Below are positions 39,120 through 55,245 of a DNA stretch of 64,000 bases, piece by piece. The translations under genes and the position numbers were made by a program. The notes beneath the pieces are model-generated. The model worked only from the letters and a program-made list of their open reading frames with translations. It was not told the DNA's origin and did no database searches. This DNA is from Desulfoglaeba alkanexedens ALDC (GTDB taxonomy: Bacteria > Desulfobacterota > Syntrophobacteria > Syntrophobacterales > DSM-9756): positions 248,001-312,000 of the forward strand of contig NZ_CP040098.1 in the NCBI RefSeq assembly GCF_005377625.1. The letters run 5' to 3'. Every line of letters starts with the position of its first letter. Positions within the stretch are counted from its first letter, which is position 1.

Positions 39120-39183
39120 GCACCCAGTTTTGCTTGATCCCACATGGAGACTAGCGGCATACTTCCGTGCCGGTTTCTCCCTC

Positions 39184-39344
39184 GGTCAGGCAGGTCTTCT
39201 GGCTCACGGATCGTCCTACTCTCCCGGCCTTCCCACCGCGCTCACGCGCGGCAGTGGCGCTTCAAGGATTTCGTCCCCGTTCACAGCGGCGGGACCGCTC
39301 CCGATTTCCACGGGATTCCCTTTTAAGCGTTCTCACACCTGACC
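39184..39344 (-). promoter_or_regulatory. Cobalamin (AdoCbl) riboswitch
   Basis: On the minus strand the P1 arms GGTCAGG and CCTGACC close a region containing the conserved GCCACTG, GGGAAGGC and the B12-box sequence GAGCCAGAAGACCTGCC. These are the signature elements of the cobalamin riboswitch. It precedes the small hypothetical gene and cbiK, with a terminator between, so it should switch the operon off when cobalamin is plentiful. Confidence 0.9.
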
Positions 39345-39366
39345 GCTTCAGCAGATTGTCGAGAAA

Positions 39367-48485: not shown

Positions 48486-48936
48486 ATCGGTTGAGCGATG
48501 ATAGGTAGCATGAATCCCTGTGAGCATCAAGATTTAAGCCGCGGTAAATTAGCTAAGTTAGGCATAACTTAGGGACAGGTGAATTATGATTTCCACTGCC
48601 TGCACAAGAAGGAGCGGCGGGCTCACCGGGCGGCGGGCGTGGAAGGGGTGTTTTCGCTTCGGCGATTGACGGCGGCGGCGTGAGGGCTGTGGCAGGATCG
48701 CCCGAAGTGATAGGGTCCCGATGGGCCGGAAACGCAGCTCTTTCGATTCCGGTCGAGACGGAAAACAACCGAGGATGGCTGCGAAGGGATGGGGCGGGAC
48801 GCGCGATCGCCCGGGTGACGGGGGATCGCGCCCTTTGCTCGCGTCGGCCGTGATGCGCGTGGAGGGGCGGTCCGCGGACCGCCCCGGCGCCTGGAATAAC
48901 GACCCGCGAGTTGGAACAGCAGTCTCCGGGATCTCA
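48486..48936. other. Gap between tRNA-Pro and Rpn-like gene A, no clear gene
   Basis: Reading frames here are GC-rich shadows with no ribosome sites or recognisable protein. The first unit of the long direct repeat begins at about 48937. Confidence 0.4.
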
Positions 48937-49920
48937 CGGGGAACGACCCGTTGGCCATCCCCGGGGACTGTGATATTTTCAAGCCGTATCCGGAAACTTT
49001 CGCAAGGAGTCGCCATGGGTGGCTACGATGCCGCCATGAAGGTCATCCTCGCCCACTGCCGTGAGGCGGCGCTGGAGTTTTTCCTGGGCCTCCACGTGGA
49101 AGAATCGGAGATTTTGGAACTTCCCCAGGAGACGGCTTCGGTTCGCCGAAGCGACTTTCCCATCCGGGTGCGGGCTTCCGACGGGCGGGTCTTTATCGTA
49201 TTGCTGGAAGTGCAAAGCCGGTGGGAACCGAACGTACCGTTGCGGCTTCTGGAATACGACGCGCGGTATCGTCTGAAAACGGGCCTCTCGGTCTTGCCGG
49301 TGGTGATGCTTCTCACCCCCAGCGGGAACGTGGTGGAAAGCTTCGAAGACGGCGGCATCCGCTACCGGTTCCAGGTGATATCCCTTGCCGCCATGGACGC
49401 CCAAAAGGTGCTGGAATGGGGAAATCCGTGCCTCATGCCCTTTGTGGGGCTCATGCGGGGAGGGTCGGAGATCTTTCAAATGGCCGAAGAGGCCGTCTAT
49501 GGCTCGAGCCTCGGCCGAAGCGACAAGGCGGATCTTTTGACCGGCATGGCGCTTCTTTCGGGTCTTGTGGACAAGGATCTACCTCGCCGGCTGCTGGAGC
49601 GCAGGAGGGACATAATGATGGAATCCTATGCCTATGAACTGATCAAGAAGGAAGGCTACGAGGAAGGCGTCCGCTCGGGAATAGAACAGGGACTGCAGCA
49701 GGGAATGCAGCAGGGGACGCTGGAGGCCACACGGGAACATATCCTGGAGACCTTGGAAGCGCGCTTTAAGGATGTTCCCAAGGATATCTTTCAGTCCCTT
49801 CGGAAGATCCAAGATCCGGATGCGCTGAAACTCGTCTTCAGGAAAGCTCTTCGTGCCGACTCCCTGGACGAATTCCGCAAAGCGCTGTCAAGCTTTTTTG
49901 ATTAGGCAGCCATTCCCGCA
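48937..49920 (+). repeat. Long direct repeat, unit A
   Basis: About 980 bp, from GGGGAACGACCCGTTGGCCA upstream of the first Rpn-like gene to just past its stop, recur at about 50215-51175 in the same orientation. The copies include the upstream leader with its ribosome site as well as the coding region, so the unit was duplicated with its expression signals. Confidence 0.85.
49015..49905 (+). CDS. Rpn-family PD-(D/E)XK nuclease-like protein, copy A
   Basis: 296 residues. The family (transposase_31/Rpn/YhgA-like) is a PD-(D/E)XK endonuclease that promotes RecA-independent recombination. The core is seen in FFLGLHVEESEIL, DFPIRVRASDGRVFIVLLEVQSRWEP (E-V-Q in the catalytic strand) and PLRLLEYDARYRLKTGL. 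The C-terminal part has a G-L-Q-Q-G-M-Q-Q-G repeat tract (about 223-234) and a helical end. ATG at 49015 follows AAGGAGT. Confidence 0.85.
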   Translation: MGGYDAAMKVILAHCREAALEFFLGLHVEESEILELPQETASVRRSDFPIRVRASDGRVFIVLLEVQSRWEPNVPLRLLEYDARYRLKTGLSVLPVVMLLTPSGNVVESFEDGGIRYRFQVISLAAMDAQKVLEWGNPCLMPFVGLMRGGSEIFQMAEEAVYGSSLGRSDKADLLTGMALLSGLVDKDLPRRLLERRRDIMMESYAYELIKKEGYEEGVRSGIEQGLQQGMQQGTLEATREHILETLEARFKDVPKDIFQSLRKIQDPDALKLVFRKALRADSLDEFRKALSSFFD

Positions 49921-50214: not shown

Positions 50215-51175
50215 TGGGGAACGACCCGTTGGCCATCCCTGGGGACTGTGATATCTTGAAACGGTATCTCCGGGAACTTTCGCAAGGAGTCCGCCATGGG
50301 TGGCTACGATGCCGCGATGAAGGTCATCCTCGCCCATTGCCGTGAGGCGGCGCTGGAGTTTTTCCTGGGTCTCCACGTGGAAGAATCGGAGATTTTGGAA
50401 CTTCCCCAGGAGACGGCTTCGGTTCGCCGAAGCGATTTTCCCATCCGGGTGCGGGCTTCCGACGGACGGGTGTTTATCGTGTTGCTGGAAGTGCAAAGCC
50501 GGTGGGAACCGAACGTACCGTTGCGGCTTCTGGAATACGACGCGCGGTATCGTCTGAAAACGGGCCTCTCGGTCTTGCCGGTAGTGATGCTTCTCACCCC
50601 CAGCGGGAACGTGGTGGAAAACTTCGAAGACGGCGGCATCCGCTACCGGTTCCAGGTGATATCCCTTGCCGCCATGGACGCCCAAAAGGTCCTGGAATGG
50701 GGAAATCCGTGTCTCATGCCCTTTGTGGGGCTCATGCGGGGAGGGTCGGAGATCTTTCAAAGGGCCGAAGAGGCCGTCTATGGCTCGAGCCTCGGCCGAA
50801 GCGACAAGGCGGATCTTTTGACCGGCATGGCGCTTCTTTCGGGTCTTGTGGACAAGGATCTACCTCGCCGGCTGCTGGAGCGCAGGAGGGACATCATGAT
50901 GGAATCCTATGCCTATGAACTGATTAAGAAGGAAGGCTACGAGGAAGGCGTCCGCTCGGGACTGCAGCAGGGGACACTGGAGGCCACGCGGGAACATATC
51001 CTGGAGACCCTGGAGGCGCGCTTTAAGGATGTTCCCAAGGATATCTTTCAATCCCTTCGGAAGATCCAAGATCCGGATGCGCTGAAACTCGTCTTCAGGA
51101 AAGCTCTTCGTGCCGATTCACTCGACGAATTCCACAAGGCGTTGTTAAGCTTTCTCGATTAGGCGGCCGTTCCCG
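50215..51175 (+). repeat. Long direct repeat, unit B
   Basis: The second unit of the roughly 1-kb direct repeat. It differs from unit A by scattered substitutions and by a 24-bp shorter QQG-coding tract. Confidence 0.85.
50296..51162 (+). CDS. Rpn-family PD-(D/E)XK nuclease-like protein, copy B
   Basis: 288 residues, nearly identical to copy A (I count only a handful of substitutions, such as SFEDGG to NFEDGG and FQMAEE to FQRAEE) apart from lacking eight residues in the G-L-Q-Q-G tract. Catalytic residues are the same. The length change in the QQG repeat is typical of this family, where the tract varies between paralogues, probably by slippage. Confidence 0.85.
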   Translation: MGGYDAAMKVILAHCREAALEFFLGLHVEESEILELPQETASVRRSDFPIRVRASDGRVFIVLLEVQSRWEPNVPLRLLEYDARYRLKTGLSVLPVVMLLTPSGNVVENFEDGGIRYRFQVISLAAMDAQKVLEWGNPCLMPFVGLMRGGSEIFQRAEEAVYGSSLGRSDKADLLTGMALLSGLVDKDLPRRLLERRRDIMMESYAYELIKKEGYEEGVRSGLQQGTLEATREHILETLEARFKDVPKDIFQSLRKIQDPDALKLVFRKALRADSLDEFHKALLSFLD

Positions 51176-51569: not shown

Positions 51570-51656
51570 CGTTTCCGAAAGGGCAAAACCGTCGTGAGGC
51601 GGTGACGCAAAGCCACGGGTCCGCGTGGAGCGGGCAGCCGGGCTGCCGAAGAAACG
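51570..51656 (+). promoter_or_regulatory. Cyclic-di-GMP-I (GEMM) riboswitch
   Basis: The P1 arms CGTTTC (51570) and GAAACG (51651) enclose the conserved core: AGGGCAAAACC, then GTGACGCAAAGCCACGGGTC, then GGCAGCCGGGCTGCCGA. These match the GEMM-I aptamer. By eye the position equal to G20 of the Vc2 aptamer is G, which favours c-di-GMP over cGAMP. The P1 3' strand can pair instead with GCTCCGTTTC at 51688-51697. It stands 79 bp before a secreted protease gene. Confidence 0.88.
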
Positions 51657-51734
51657 GGAGCAACCTCCAGGGACTATGCCTTGCGGCTCCGTTTCTCTTC
51701 GGAATCGTCTTCAACTTCCAAGGAGGTGTCCGTC

Positions 51735-53576
51735 ATGTTTTTCAAAACGCCACACCGCAGCGGTACTTCATGGCTTTTGCCTTTCAACTTCGGGACCCGT
51801 CGCGAAAACAGGCGGCGGGCTTTGGCCGTGCTTCTCACCTTCTTGCTTTTCGCGCTCGTGTACCCGGCGGCCTGGGCGGATCCGCCCCAGTGGGCGCCCG
51901 GAAGGATCCTGGTCCAGGCCCGATCCGGCGTGGACGATTGGCGGCTGGAAGACGTCCTGGCCCGGCACGGTGCTCGAACCGTGAGCATACTGGAAAAGAT
52001 CAAGGTGCACATCGTGTCCGTTCCGCCCCAGGCGGAAGAAGCCGTGGCCCGGGCCCTCGCTCACAACCCCAACATCGCCTTCGCCGAACCCGACCGGCTG
52101 CTGCCGCCCGGCGAAATCCATCCCGACGATCCCCAGTACCCGAACCAGTGGCATCTCCCGCTCATGAACGCTCCCGGCGCCTGGGATTACACCCTCGGCG
52201 ACGGTGTCGTCGCGGCCGTCCTGGACACCGGGGTCGACGCCACCCACGCGGACCTCGCAGGAAAGCTGGTCCCGGGCTGGAACATTTACAACAATAACGC
52301 TGACACCTCCGACATCTACGGTCACGGCACCAAGGTCGCCGGAGTGATCGGCGCCGCCGCCGACAACGGCCTGGGCGTGGCCTCTCTCTCATGGAACACG
52401 ATGATCATGCCGGTCCGCATCAGCCGCGACGACGGCTACGCCTACTACAGCACCATCGCGAGCGGCCTCACCTGGGCGGCGGATCACGGTGCTCACGTCG
52501 CCAACATCAGCTACATGGTCACGGGAAGTTCCACGGTGGGGAGTGCGGCCGCTTACTTCCGGGAAAGGGGCGGGGTAGTGTTCGCCTCGGCGGGAAACTC
52601 CGGCGCCCTGGAGTCTGTCCTCGACAGTGAAACCATCATCAGTGTTGCCGCCACCACCAGTTCCGACGACCGGGCCAGTTGGTCCTCCTACGGGGACTTC
52701 GTGGATCTGGCCGCTCCCGGTGCCGGCATCGTGACTACGATGCGAGGCGGCGGCTACGCGAGCGTTTCCGGAACGTCCTTTTCGAGCCCGGCGGCAGCGG
52801 CCGTGGGGGCGCTTGTGCTCGCGATCAACCCCGTCCTTTCACCCAGCCGGGTGGAACAGGTCATAGAAAGCACCCCCGTGGATCTGGGAACCACGGGTTG
52901 GGACATCTACTACGGGCACGGCCGGGTGGACGCGTTGGCCGCGATCCTCGCGGCACTGGAGACCTCGGAAACGGCGGACACCCAGGCTCCTTCGGCCGCC
53001 ATCCTTGCGCCGACGGGCGGCACCGTTTCCGGTGACGTAGCGGTAGACGTGAGTGCTTCCGACAACGTAGGGGTCATCAACGTCGCGCTCTACGCCGACG
53101 GTTCCTTCGTGGCCGAGGATACGGAGCCGCCTTTCCAGTTCACGGTGGATACGCTGCTCCACGGCGACGGTTCCCTCACCCTGACCGCCACCGCACTGGA
53201 TGCCGCCGGAAACCAAGGGAACTCCGAACCGGTCACCGTCACCGTGGACAATACGCCCGACCCCGTGGATACGGAAGCACCCGCAGTGGTGATTCTGAAC
53301 CCTTCCGACGGCACCACCCTGGAGAAACTGGTCCGCATCCAGATGAGCGCCTCGGACAACGCGGGGGTGACGCGCCTTGGCTGTTACGTCGACGGGAAAC
53401 TCTTGGGCGAGACGGAGGGAGACTTCCTTTCCATAAACTGGAACACGTGGAAAGCCGCCGACGGGAACCACACCATTACCGGGGAAGCCTGGGACGCAGC
53501 GGGAAATCTGGCCGAAACCACCATCACCGTGGTTAAACCGGCCGACACGTTGAAAACATCCCAAAACAGCAACTGA
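51735..53576 (+). CDS. Secreted subtilisin-like S8 protease with Ig-like repeats
   Basis: 613 residues: signal peptide with long n-region (about 1-48), an I9-like propeptide (about 55-120), the S8 catalytic domain (about 130-430) with Asp164 (VLDTGVDATH), His197 (GHGTKVAGVIG), oxyanion Asn288 (ASAGNSG) and Ser348 (SGTSFSSPAAAA), then two Ig-like beta-sandwich repeats (about 435-520 and 530-605; each starts with APSAAIL or APAVVIL). ATG at 51735 follows AAGGAGG. A GEMM riboswitch in the leader suggests c-di-GMP control of its production. Confidence 0.93.
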   Translation: MFFKTPHRSGTSWLLPFNFGTRRENRRRALAVLLTFLLFALVYPAAWADPPQWAPGRILVQARSGVDDWRLEDVLARHGARTVSILEKIKVHIVSVPPQAEEAVARALAHNPNIAFAEPDRLLPPGEIHPDDPQYPNQWHLPLMNAPGAWDYTLGDGVVAAVLDTGVDATHADLAGKLVPGWNIYNNNADTSDIYGHGTKVAGVIGAAADNGLGVASLSWNTMIMPVRISRDDGYAYYSTIASGLTWAADHGAHVANISYMVTGSSTVGSAAAYFRERGGVVFASAGNSGALESVLDSETIISVAATTSSDDRASWSSYGDFVDLAAPGAGIVTTMRGGGYASVSGTSFSSPAAAAVGALVLAINPVLSPSRVEQVIESTPVDLGTTGWDIYYGHGRVDALAAILAALETSETADTQAPSAAILAPTGGTVSGDVAVDVSASDNVGVINVALYADGSFVAEDTEPPFQFTVDTLLHGDGSLTLTATALDAAGNQGNSEPVTVTVDNTPDPVDTEAPAVVILNPSDGTTLEKLVRIQMSASDNAGVTRLGCYVDGKLLGETEGDFLSINWNTWKAADGNHTITGEAWDAAGNLAETTITVVKPADTLKTSQNSN

Positions 53577-53779: not shown

Positions 53780-54589
53780 TCAACGTTTTCTGCGCCAGCG
53801 CCCGACCGCCCCGGCCCCGATCAACCCGGTCCCGACCAGGAGGAGGCTCGCCGGCTCCGGGATGACTTCCGATGGCGGTTGTCCACCATCACCACTGCCA
53901 CCATCGTGGGAAAACGGACTGAAGACAGAATGTATCTTGTGATTCGTCTTCACAATGTGGTCGTAGGCCACGATATCCATCCACGTGTAGCCTTCGCCAA
54001 CGTTCACATGGAAGACTTTCGTCTCACCCACCGCCGTATCGCCCCACTCCTCCCCGGGAATAAAATTCATCACCGTCTCACCAAGGCCAAAGTCCCCTAC
54101 CATATATTCATAGTAGGATGTAGGAAAGACCCCATGTGGAGGTACCGAAGTTCCATCCCCCATAACGGGAGTCCCGTAGGAAACGAACTTGTAATTTTCA
54201 TCCAGGTAAACATCCCCGGTTCCTTCGTGCAGTAAATCGTGATTACCCGCAATTCTTGTGGCGACTCCGGTTGAATTATAGCTGGGTTCGGAAGACGTTC
54301 CATCAACCCACGTAATATCAATGGTGCCGTCCTCATCGGTTGAGACCGCCAAAGCGATTTTAACATCAAAGATTTCTTCCTGGGCGCCGATCACCCAGAG
54401 ATCATACTCCAGGCTTTCCATGATCCAGGTTTCCGTGTCCGTGTCGTAGGTCGCCCCAGGAATATAAATCTGCAATTTGGGGACCGCCCAGACGGGAGCA
54501 TACAGGCCGGCCGTCAGTGGCAATGAGGCCAGAAGGAACATGAAAAGCCAGACCACCCCCCAACGTTTTCTTTTCGCTTCTTTCAGCAT
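53780..54589 (-). CDS. PEP-CTERM sorted exported protein
   Basis: 269 residues: signal peptide (about 1-36), a beta-rich extracellular domain with TDTETWIMESLEYDLWVIGA and DIVAYDHIVKTNHKIHSVFS, and a C-terminal PEP-CTERM signal (IPEPASLLLVGTGLIGAG then RWRRKR). The domain resembles the choice-of-anchor type proteins of PEP-CTERM systems. The signal implies an exosortase elsewhere in the genome and, by family knowledge, a link to exopolysaccharide. ATG at 54589 follows GGAGGGA. Confidence 0.88.
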   Translation of the reverse strand: MLKEAKRKRWGVVWLFMFLLASLPLTAGLYAPVWAVPKLQIYIPGATYDTDTETWIMESLEYDLWVIGAQEEIFDVKIALAVSTDEDGTIDITWVDGTSSEPSYNSTGVATRIAGNHDLLHEGTGDVYLDENYKFVSYGTPVMGDGTSVPPHGVFPTSYYEYMVGDFGLGETVMNFIPGEEWGDTAVGETKVFHVNVGEGYTWMDIVAYDHIVKTNHKIHSVFSPFSHDGGSGDGGQPPSEVIPEPASLLLVGTGLIGAGAVGRWRRKR

Positions 54590-55245
54590 GACATCCCTCC
54601 AGCACCGGAGCCTAATGAGCCGCAAGAAAACTCGTCGGAGAACGTGTTGAAGCAACCAACATGCCAATACGGCCGTCCAGCGTTCATGTCTCTAACCAAT
54701 TGTATCGACTAGATAATTTTGAGACAGAAGTGAGCGTTTTGATCTGTATCGGGACAGGTGTGCAATAGGCTTCCACTCGGGGATGCAACCCCCGTCTCAG
54801 ATCGGTAATCCATTGCACATGCCTTTTGGGGTGGGATTGGACCCTAAGAGCCGATCTGAGATTACCCCGCACCCTTTGGGGATTGAGTGTCCGTTTTTTC
54901 GCGTAGGGGCGGATCGCGAACGGCGGTTAAGGAGCGACTCATGCCCTGTAGGAGCCGGCTTGCCGGCGATCAGGGTCAACGCGGTATTGCCGGTTTTACG
55001 GGTCGCGGGCAAGCCCGCTCCTACCGACAACGGAAAACCGGGCCGATGGGGCATGGCGTTGGGGTTGGTTCATCGCGGCGAGGGCGCCACTCCCACAGAT
55101 GGTTTGCATCGCGGCCAAGGCCGCTCCTACAGGAACACGGAACGTCAGGGCCCGACTTTCATGAGCTTGTTTTCGGACGACATCTAAGCCCATGGGCTTC
55201 CGAAGACTCCATGAGGTGCCTCCGGCTTATCCGCTCCAATACGCC
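54590..55245. repeat. Repeat-rich gap with composite REP-like element, copy 3
   Basis: No gene is supported. It holds an inverted repeat CTCAGATCGG/CCGATCTGAG (54796-54860), a REP-like unit bounded by CCTGTAGGAGC/GCTCCTACC (54945-55024) nearly the reverse complement of that at 33643, and a second partial unit leading to CCCGACTTTCATGAGCTTGT (to 55171). The last hairpin is broken: TTTCGGACGACATCT replaces its second arm. Confidence 0.7.

Follow-up and report, generated by a model that had tools for sequence, protein, structure and literature searches.

A c-di-GMP-I riboswitch with a predicted translational OFF platform precedes a secreted subtilase gene beside a PEP-CTERM gene in Desulfoglaeba alkanexedens

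Several described systems come close to the locus analysed here. Vc2 of Vibrio cholerae, whose reported ligand contacts are G20, A47, A48 and C92 (PMC3764141), is described as a translational OFF switch in which P1 is the pivot and a distant ribosome-binding site is masked (as cited in PMC9262584). In Clostridioides difficile, c-di-GMP turns off the protease ZmpI (CD2830, PPEP-1) via a class I riboswitch (Cdi1_12), and ZmpI cleaves CD2831, an adhesin whose gene adjoins its own (PMC4591827). The subtilisin-like OzpA of Geobacter matures OmcZ, which is encoded beside OzpA (PMC9473688), and in Methylophaga nitratireducenticrescens GP59 c-di-GMP riboswitches are listed before PEP-CTERM genes (PMC12530212).

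Within a stretch of 64,000 nucleotides from D. alkanexedens ALDC (hereafter the window), a c-di-GMP-I (GEMM-I) aptamer ends 84 nt ahead of the start codon of a secreted protease gene on the same strand (Table 1). It resembles Vc2 in having a GEMM-I aptamer with G20, A47 and C92 but stands before another gene, and its P1 is followed directly by a conserved anti-Shine-Dalgarno (anti-SD) that a competitor helix encloses. With the C. difficile locus it shares a c-di-GMP-I riboswitch on an exported protease and an adjoining gene for a surface-sorted protein; however, ZmpI is a zinc metalloprotease under transcription control, with a sortase substrate and proven cleavage, whereas the window has a subtilase, predicted translation control and a PEP-CTERM neighbour as candidate substrate. 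The likeness to OzpA and OmcZ lies in a subtilisin-like protease gene beside an exported-protein gene, but the substrate there is a multihaem cytochrome and no cytochrome was found beside the window subtilase; a relation to that pair was set aside, none of the neighbourhoods read having shown a multihaem (CXXCH-rich) protein. As in Methylophaga GP59, a c-di-GMP riboswitch is linked to PEP-CTERM proteins, although there it precedes the PEP-CTERM gene itself and here the neighbouring protease gene. We consider it likely that this canonical c-di-GMP-I riboswitch is an OFF switch, repressing translation of the subtilase when c-di-GMP is high.

Table 1 Features of the riboswitch, its expression platform and the adjoining genes (window coordinates)
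Feature	Position	Strand	Basis
P1 5' strand CGUUUC, then C576-G577	51570..51577	+	Rfam alignment register and coordinates
c-di-GMP-I (GEMM-I) aptamer core	51573..51651	+	RF03167 66.9 bits, RF01051 69.9 bits
P1 3' strand GAAACGGGAGC, common to P1 and the competing helix (Palt)	51651..51661	+	
Anti-Shine-Dalgarno ACCUCC	51663..51668	+	Complementary to 51722-51727; covaries with the Shine-Dalgarno in 8 leaders
Competing hairpin (Palt) 3' arm GCUCCGUUUC	51686..51695	+	
Shine-Dalgarno AAGGAGGUG, core GGAGGU 51722-51727	51720..51728	+	Sequence; 6 nt before ATG 51735
Secreted S8 subtilase: signal peptide, fervidolysin-like prodomain, Peptidase_S8, two Big_7 Ig domains	51735..53576	+	Pfam
Choice-of-anchor N protein with PEP-CTERM tail	53780..54667	-	NF038141 141 bits, TIGR02595 19.3 bits, PF07589

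The aptamer was identified with covariance models. Across the whole window, cmscan matched RF03167 (c-di-GMP-I-GGC) to the core on the forward strand above its gathering threshold of 59 (E 1.3e-13), and RF01051 (c-di-GMP-I) matched the same interval against a threshold of 35, so that the GEMM core claimed by an earlier sequence-only reading, which had proposed such an Infernal/Rfam search as a check, is borne out by both models. E-value order puts RF03167 first; the bit score is higher for RF01051. The locus is thus like c-di-GMP-I-GGC in its score and unlike it in the A47 column (below), and RF01051 fits at least as well. Neither model found a second GEMM-I copy in the 3.37 Mb genome. The 5' strand of P1 pairs with 51647-51648 and 51651-51656, leaving a 2-nt AA bulge, and the outward extension of the helix joins CGTTTC (51570-51575) to GAAACG (51651-51656). 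In two related genomes (G022 and G023; L118 and L119) a small hairpin, absent from the window, stands just 5' of P1 and shows a compensated change, GGGCC/GGCCC versus GGGUC/GACCC. Many of the class-wide GEMM-I matches (for example, L040, L043 and L050) have C21-G46 (AAAGCC...GACGGAAAG) rather than G21-C46 and keep G20; this swapped pair appears to mark a second GEMM-I subtype in the class. Elsewhere in the window, a cobalamin riboswitch lies at 39172-39357 (-) with 114 bits, and a near-identical tandem gene pair with no Pfam match over threshold (48721-49905 and 50296-51162, +) lies directly 5' of the c-di-GMP-I riboswitch.

The ligand was assessed from the contact positions and from the signalling enzymes of the genome. 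The first rank of RF03167, together with the use of GEMM-Ib for cGAMP in Geobacter (PMC6456294), would suit an aptamer that senses another cyclic dinucleotide, be it 3',3'-cGAMP (GEMM-Ib) or whatever the c-di-GMP-I-GGC variants bind. However, the positions of the ligand contacts, hand-mapped on the alignment, are all canonical (G20 = 51582, A47 = 51609, A48 = 51610 and C92 = 51646). The cGAMP riboswitch has an A (A14) at the G20 position (PMC6274999), where the window has G and so lacks the A that marks GEMM-Ib. In the cmscan alignment, the RF03167 consensus GACGCGAA has G in the A47 column, presumably the source of the c-di-GMP-I-GGC family name, and the window (GACGCAAA) has A; on these two positions, neither the cGAMP nor the GGC type fits. 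Hypr cGAMP enzymes carry Ser in GHxxGS where canonical GGDEF has Asp (PMC6456294). The genome has four GGDEF matches. Three (L080, L081 and L083) keep the Asp, in GHMVGD, GHQAGD and GFDHGD, and the fourth is degenerate; no Hypr-type Ser was found among the GGDEF domains of this ~97% complete genome, and an EAL domain is present. Set against these observations and the higher bit score of RF01051, another ligand is improbable, and cGAMP in particular was set aside on the G20 and GGDEF signatures. Canonical contacts, GGDEF Asp and EAL together make c-di-GMP the expected ligand of the aptamer.

Downstream of the aptamer, two further pairings can be drawn. The anti-SD (ACCTCC in the DNA) stands immediately 3' of P1, and the 3' strand of P1 (GAAACGGGAGC, 51651-51661) can instead pair with GCTCCGTTTC (51686-51695) in the helix that we call Palt, of 10 bp with one bulged G. 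The sequence-only reading had placed a hairpin competing with P1 at 51688-51697; the hairpin is real and conserved in eight leaders, but those coordinates are 2 nt off. Its statement that the two pairings exclude each other stands, given that strand 51651-51661 is common to P1 and Palt and that both pairings are conserved. In the window alone, a pairing as good as Palt arises in 82 of 2,000 dinucleotide shuffles of the downstream sequence, the Palt hairpin has z = -2.0 (p = 0.03, mononucleotide shuffles) and the anti-SD:SD pairing is matched by 150 of 1,000 shuffles, which is not significant. No intrinsic terminator, U run or terminator-like site was found in the window leader, and a consensus scan found no promoter.

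To these single-sequence figures we added a comparison of eight leaders from several lineages in two phyla (the window, G022, G023, G025, G367, G384, G080 and Nitrospiraceae), in a 46-column alignment hand-cut around the pairings; the leaders are related, so cells that covary do not count as independent events. In the 8-bp Palt helix, 98.4% of cells are paired; slid registers reach at most 59%, and one pair is compensated. For the anti-SD:SD helix the proportion is 80%, best at register 0 and compared with 47–58% in slid registers, and five pairs have changes on both sides; shuffles were as good in 0 of 500 cases for pairing, 1 of 500 for the covariation score and 0–1 of 500 for cells changed on both sides. 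Palt is therefore convincing because it is conserved across leaders, being only modestly above chance in the window alone, and covariation supports the anti-SD:SD helix, with no formal probability attached because the segments were hand-cut and the sequences are related. As anatomy, the eight leaders conserve both pairings of an arrangement in which P1 is excluded by a second helix that keeps the anti-SD from the SD. All leaders form Palt as a stable hairpin, and in most of them the anti-SD lies largely within its paired parts, the exceptions being the window, with only 1 of 6 nt so placed, and G025, with 2 of 6. In G080 (L107 and L115), the same riboswitch and platform precede a secreted Big_7 Ig protein without a protease domain, the rest of which has no Pfam match, and the anti-SD CCACCUCU fits an altered SD AGAGGUGG.

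From this anatomy a mechanism can be proposed. At low ligand, the P1 3' strand would leave P1 and pair with 51686-51695 once 51695 has been transcribed, and the Palt hairpin would keep the anti-SD inside, leaving the SD open so that the protease is made. At high ligand, c-di-GMP would lock P1 while the ~40 nt up to 51695 are being transcribed; the anti-SD would then be free to pair with the SD and turn translation off. The sequence-only reading had a switch between expression states, and its competitor pairing holds, but it gave no mechanism linking the competitor to expression and missed the anti-SD:SD pair, which supplies the output and the predicted direction.

Folding calculations agree in part with this scheme. 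In a set of seven leaders (G080 left out), forcing P1 gave a predicted anti-SD:SD probability of 0.90–1.00 in five, including 0.98 in the window, and forcing Palt gave 0.00 in all seven; G022 and G025 did not give the expected fold with P1 forced. In the growing RNA, Palt is ahead of P1 by ~7 kcal/mol at 51696 and then by 5–12 kcal/mol, before the SD is transcribed; because Palt wins over P1 before the SD is made, the SD should stay open without ligand. At equilibrium, the full-length window leader shows no clean two-state switch, and anti-SD:SD forms even when P1 is not forced, for which reason kinetic trapping is assumed. This equilibrium result, the marginal window pairings and a degenerate-looking copy in Nitrosomonas (36.2 bits) could also point to a decayed riboswitch whose aptamer may bind while the weak window pairings do not regulate. 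Such a loss of switching is very improbable, however, in view of the high aptamer score and of two pairings conserved in register with covariation.

The opposite direction of control has to be weighed on the same structures. If ligand-free Palt itself blocked expression, by transcription attenuation or by a pseudoknot between its loop and the SD, and P1 relieved the block, the element would be an ON switch, as other class I riboswitches are (for example, Bc2, quoted in PMC6366702). The stability of the Palt hairpin in all leaders would suit this, as would the Nitrospiraceae leader, in which UUUUUUUU, a U run, adjoins the Palt hairpin, which could be a terminator there. However, no U run was found in the six other leaders, and the window leader has neither a U run nor a terminator-like site, so a transcription terminator was rejected as the output here. 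The anti-SD is mostly paired inside Palt in most leaders, which speaks against the pseudoknot (the window and G025 having few such nucleotides), and in the folding P1 leaves the anti-SD available to the SD. We therefore judge an ON switch rather unlikely. For the OFF switch, we infer c-di-GMP as the in vivo ligand, repression in its presence and kinetic control, the direction following from modelled folds, and production of the protease is probably confined to low levels of the 'stay attached' signal.

The regulated gene fits the description of an exported protease with Ig repeats that the sequence-only reading had given it. It encodes a secreted S8 subtilase in which the Asp, His and Ser motifs are present, with thermitase 1THM and AK.1 protease 1DBI as the nearest solved structures. 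A riboswitch stands ahead of its orthologues in G022 and G023 (same family, 66–67% identity), G025 (another family of the order, 45%), G367 and G384 (elsewhere in the phylum, 38–39%), a Nitrospiraceae MAG (51% over the part present) and Ca. Nitrotoga, and weakly in Nitrosomonas; in Ca. Nitrotoga the platform is different, and the degenerate-looking riboswitch of Nitrosomonas Nm132 also has another platform. No riboswitch was detectable before the relatives in G290, G348 and an Acidobacteria MAG. Searched as a pattern, the aptamer with P1 occurs in 7 of 395 genomes of the phylum, at six subtilase loci (the window included) and before one related Ig protein (G080), compared with none of the 395 for the reversed pattern. 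On a tree of 78 aptamers, which has few columns and weak resolution, the subtilase-linked sequences need 3 changes versus 9.7 in shuffles (0 of 500 as low), and the G025 subtilase copy groups with G080, G367, G384 and Nitrospiraceae (support 99/98), not with the other GEMM aptamers of G025. The protease tree shows no clustering of the riboswitch label (3 changes; all 500 of 500 shuffles were as low), so that losses or repeated gains of the riboswitch are both possible. Across distant bacteria, these comparisons show, sensor, on/off hairpins and enzyme have stayed together.

The gene next to the subtilase encodes a choice-of-anchor N protein, which its neighbourhood makes a candidate substrate or partner of the protease. 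Of the 11 loci that could be assessed, 10 have a PEP-CTERM gene (tail defined by TIGR02595 over cut-off) close to the subtilase: the window, G022, G023, G367, G384, G348 (where one gene stands between), G299, Ca. Nitrotoga, Nitrosomonas and the Acidobacteria MAG. Near the G025 subtilase no such gene was observed, and the loci of Nitrospiraceae, G290 and G074, which end too soon, were left out of the 11. The two genes are convergent or co-directional, and the neighbouring proteins span several families, choice-of-anchor N being found in four (the window, G022, G023 and Nitrotoga). Choice-of-anchor N proteins are rare (32 of 395 genomes), and G018, G019 and G021 carry them but not the subtilase. 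In the window's genome, which is ~97% complete, this protein is the sole PEP-CTERM match, and no EpsH-type exosortase was found. Beside the PEP-CTERM gene, at 54940-55140, are repeated inverted motifs (GTAGGAGC..GCTCCTAC) resembling REP-type elements.

Gene adjacency suggests that the protease may act on PEP-CTERM surface proteins. Our broader proposal is tentative: the locus may belong to a conserved, mobile Gram-negative module, a convergent counterpart of the sortase/ZmpI system, whose c-di-GMP OFF riboswitch would govern a secreted subtilase dedicated to shedding or maturing the neighbouring PEP-CTERM protein, which would be released as c-di-GMP falls. On this view the subtilase might even take the place of the sorting protease in the window's genome, given its lone PEP-CTERM gene and the lack of a detected exosortase. 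It is plausible that attachment signalling and extracellular proteolysis are joined here, as the sequence-only reading had it, and the general idea has precedent, because the window pair resembles ZmpI and CD2831. In the literature searched, outside which most subscription journals lie, we found neither a c-di-GMP riboswitch before a subtilase nor a conserved riboswitch–subtilase–PEP-CTERM association; the GEMM-I class is already known, and it is this gene association that is newly seen.

It is seldom that sequence alone reveals a clear output logic for a c-di-GMP riboswitch. In the present case, an output set by anti-SD against SD and backed by covariation yields a precise and easily tested prediction, and the recurrent pairing of riboswitch-subtilase with PEP-CTERM genes offers a candidate substrate. 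Together, these may provide a way in to how Gram-negative bacteria release exosortase-type surface proteins as c-di-GMP falls.
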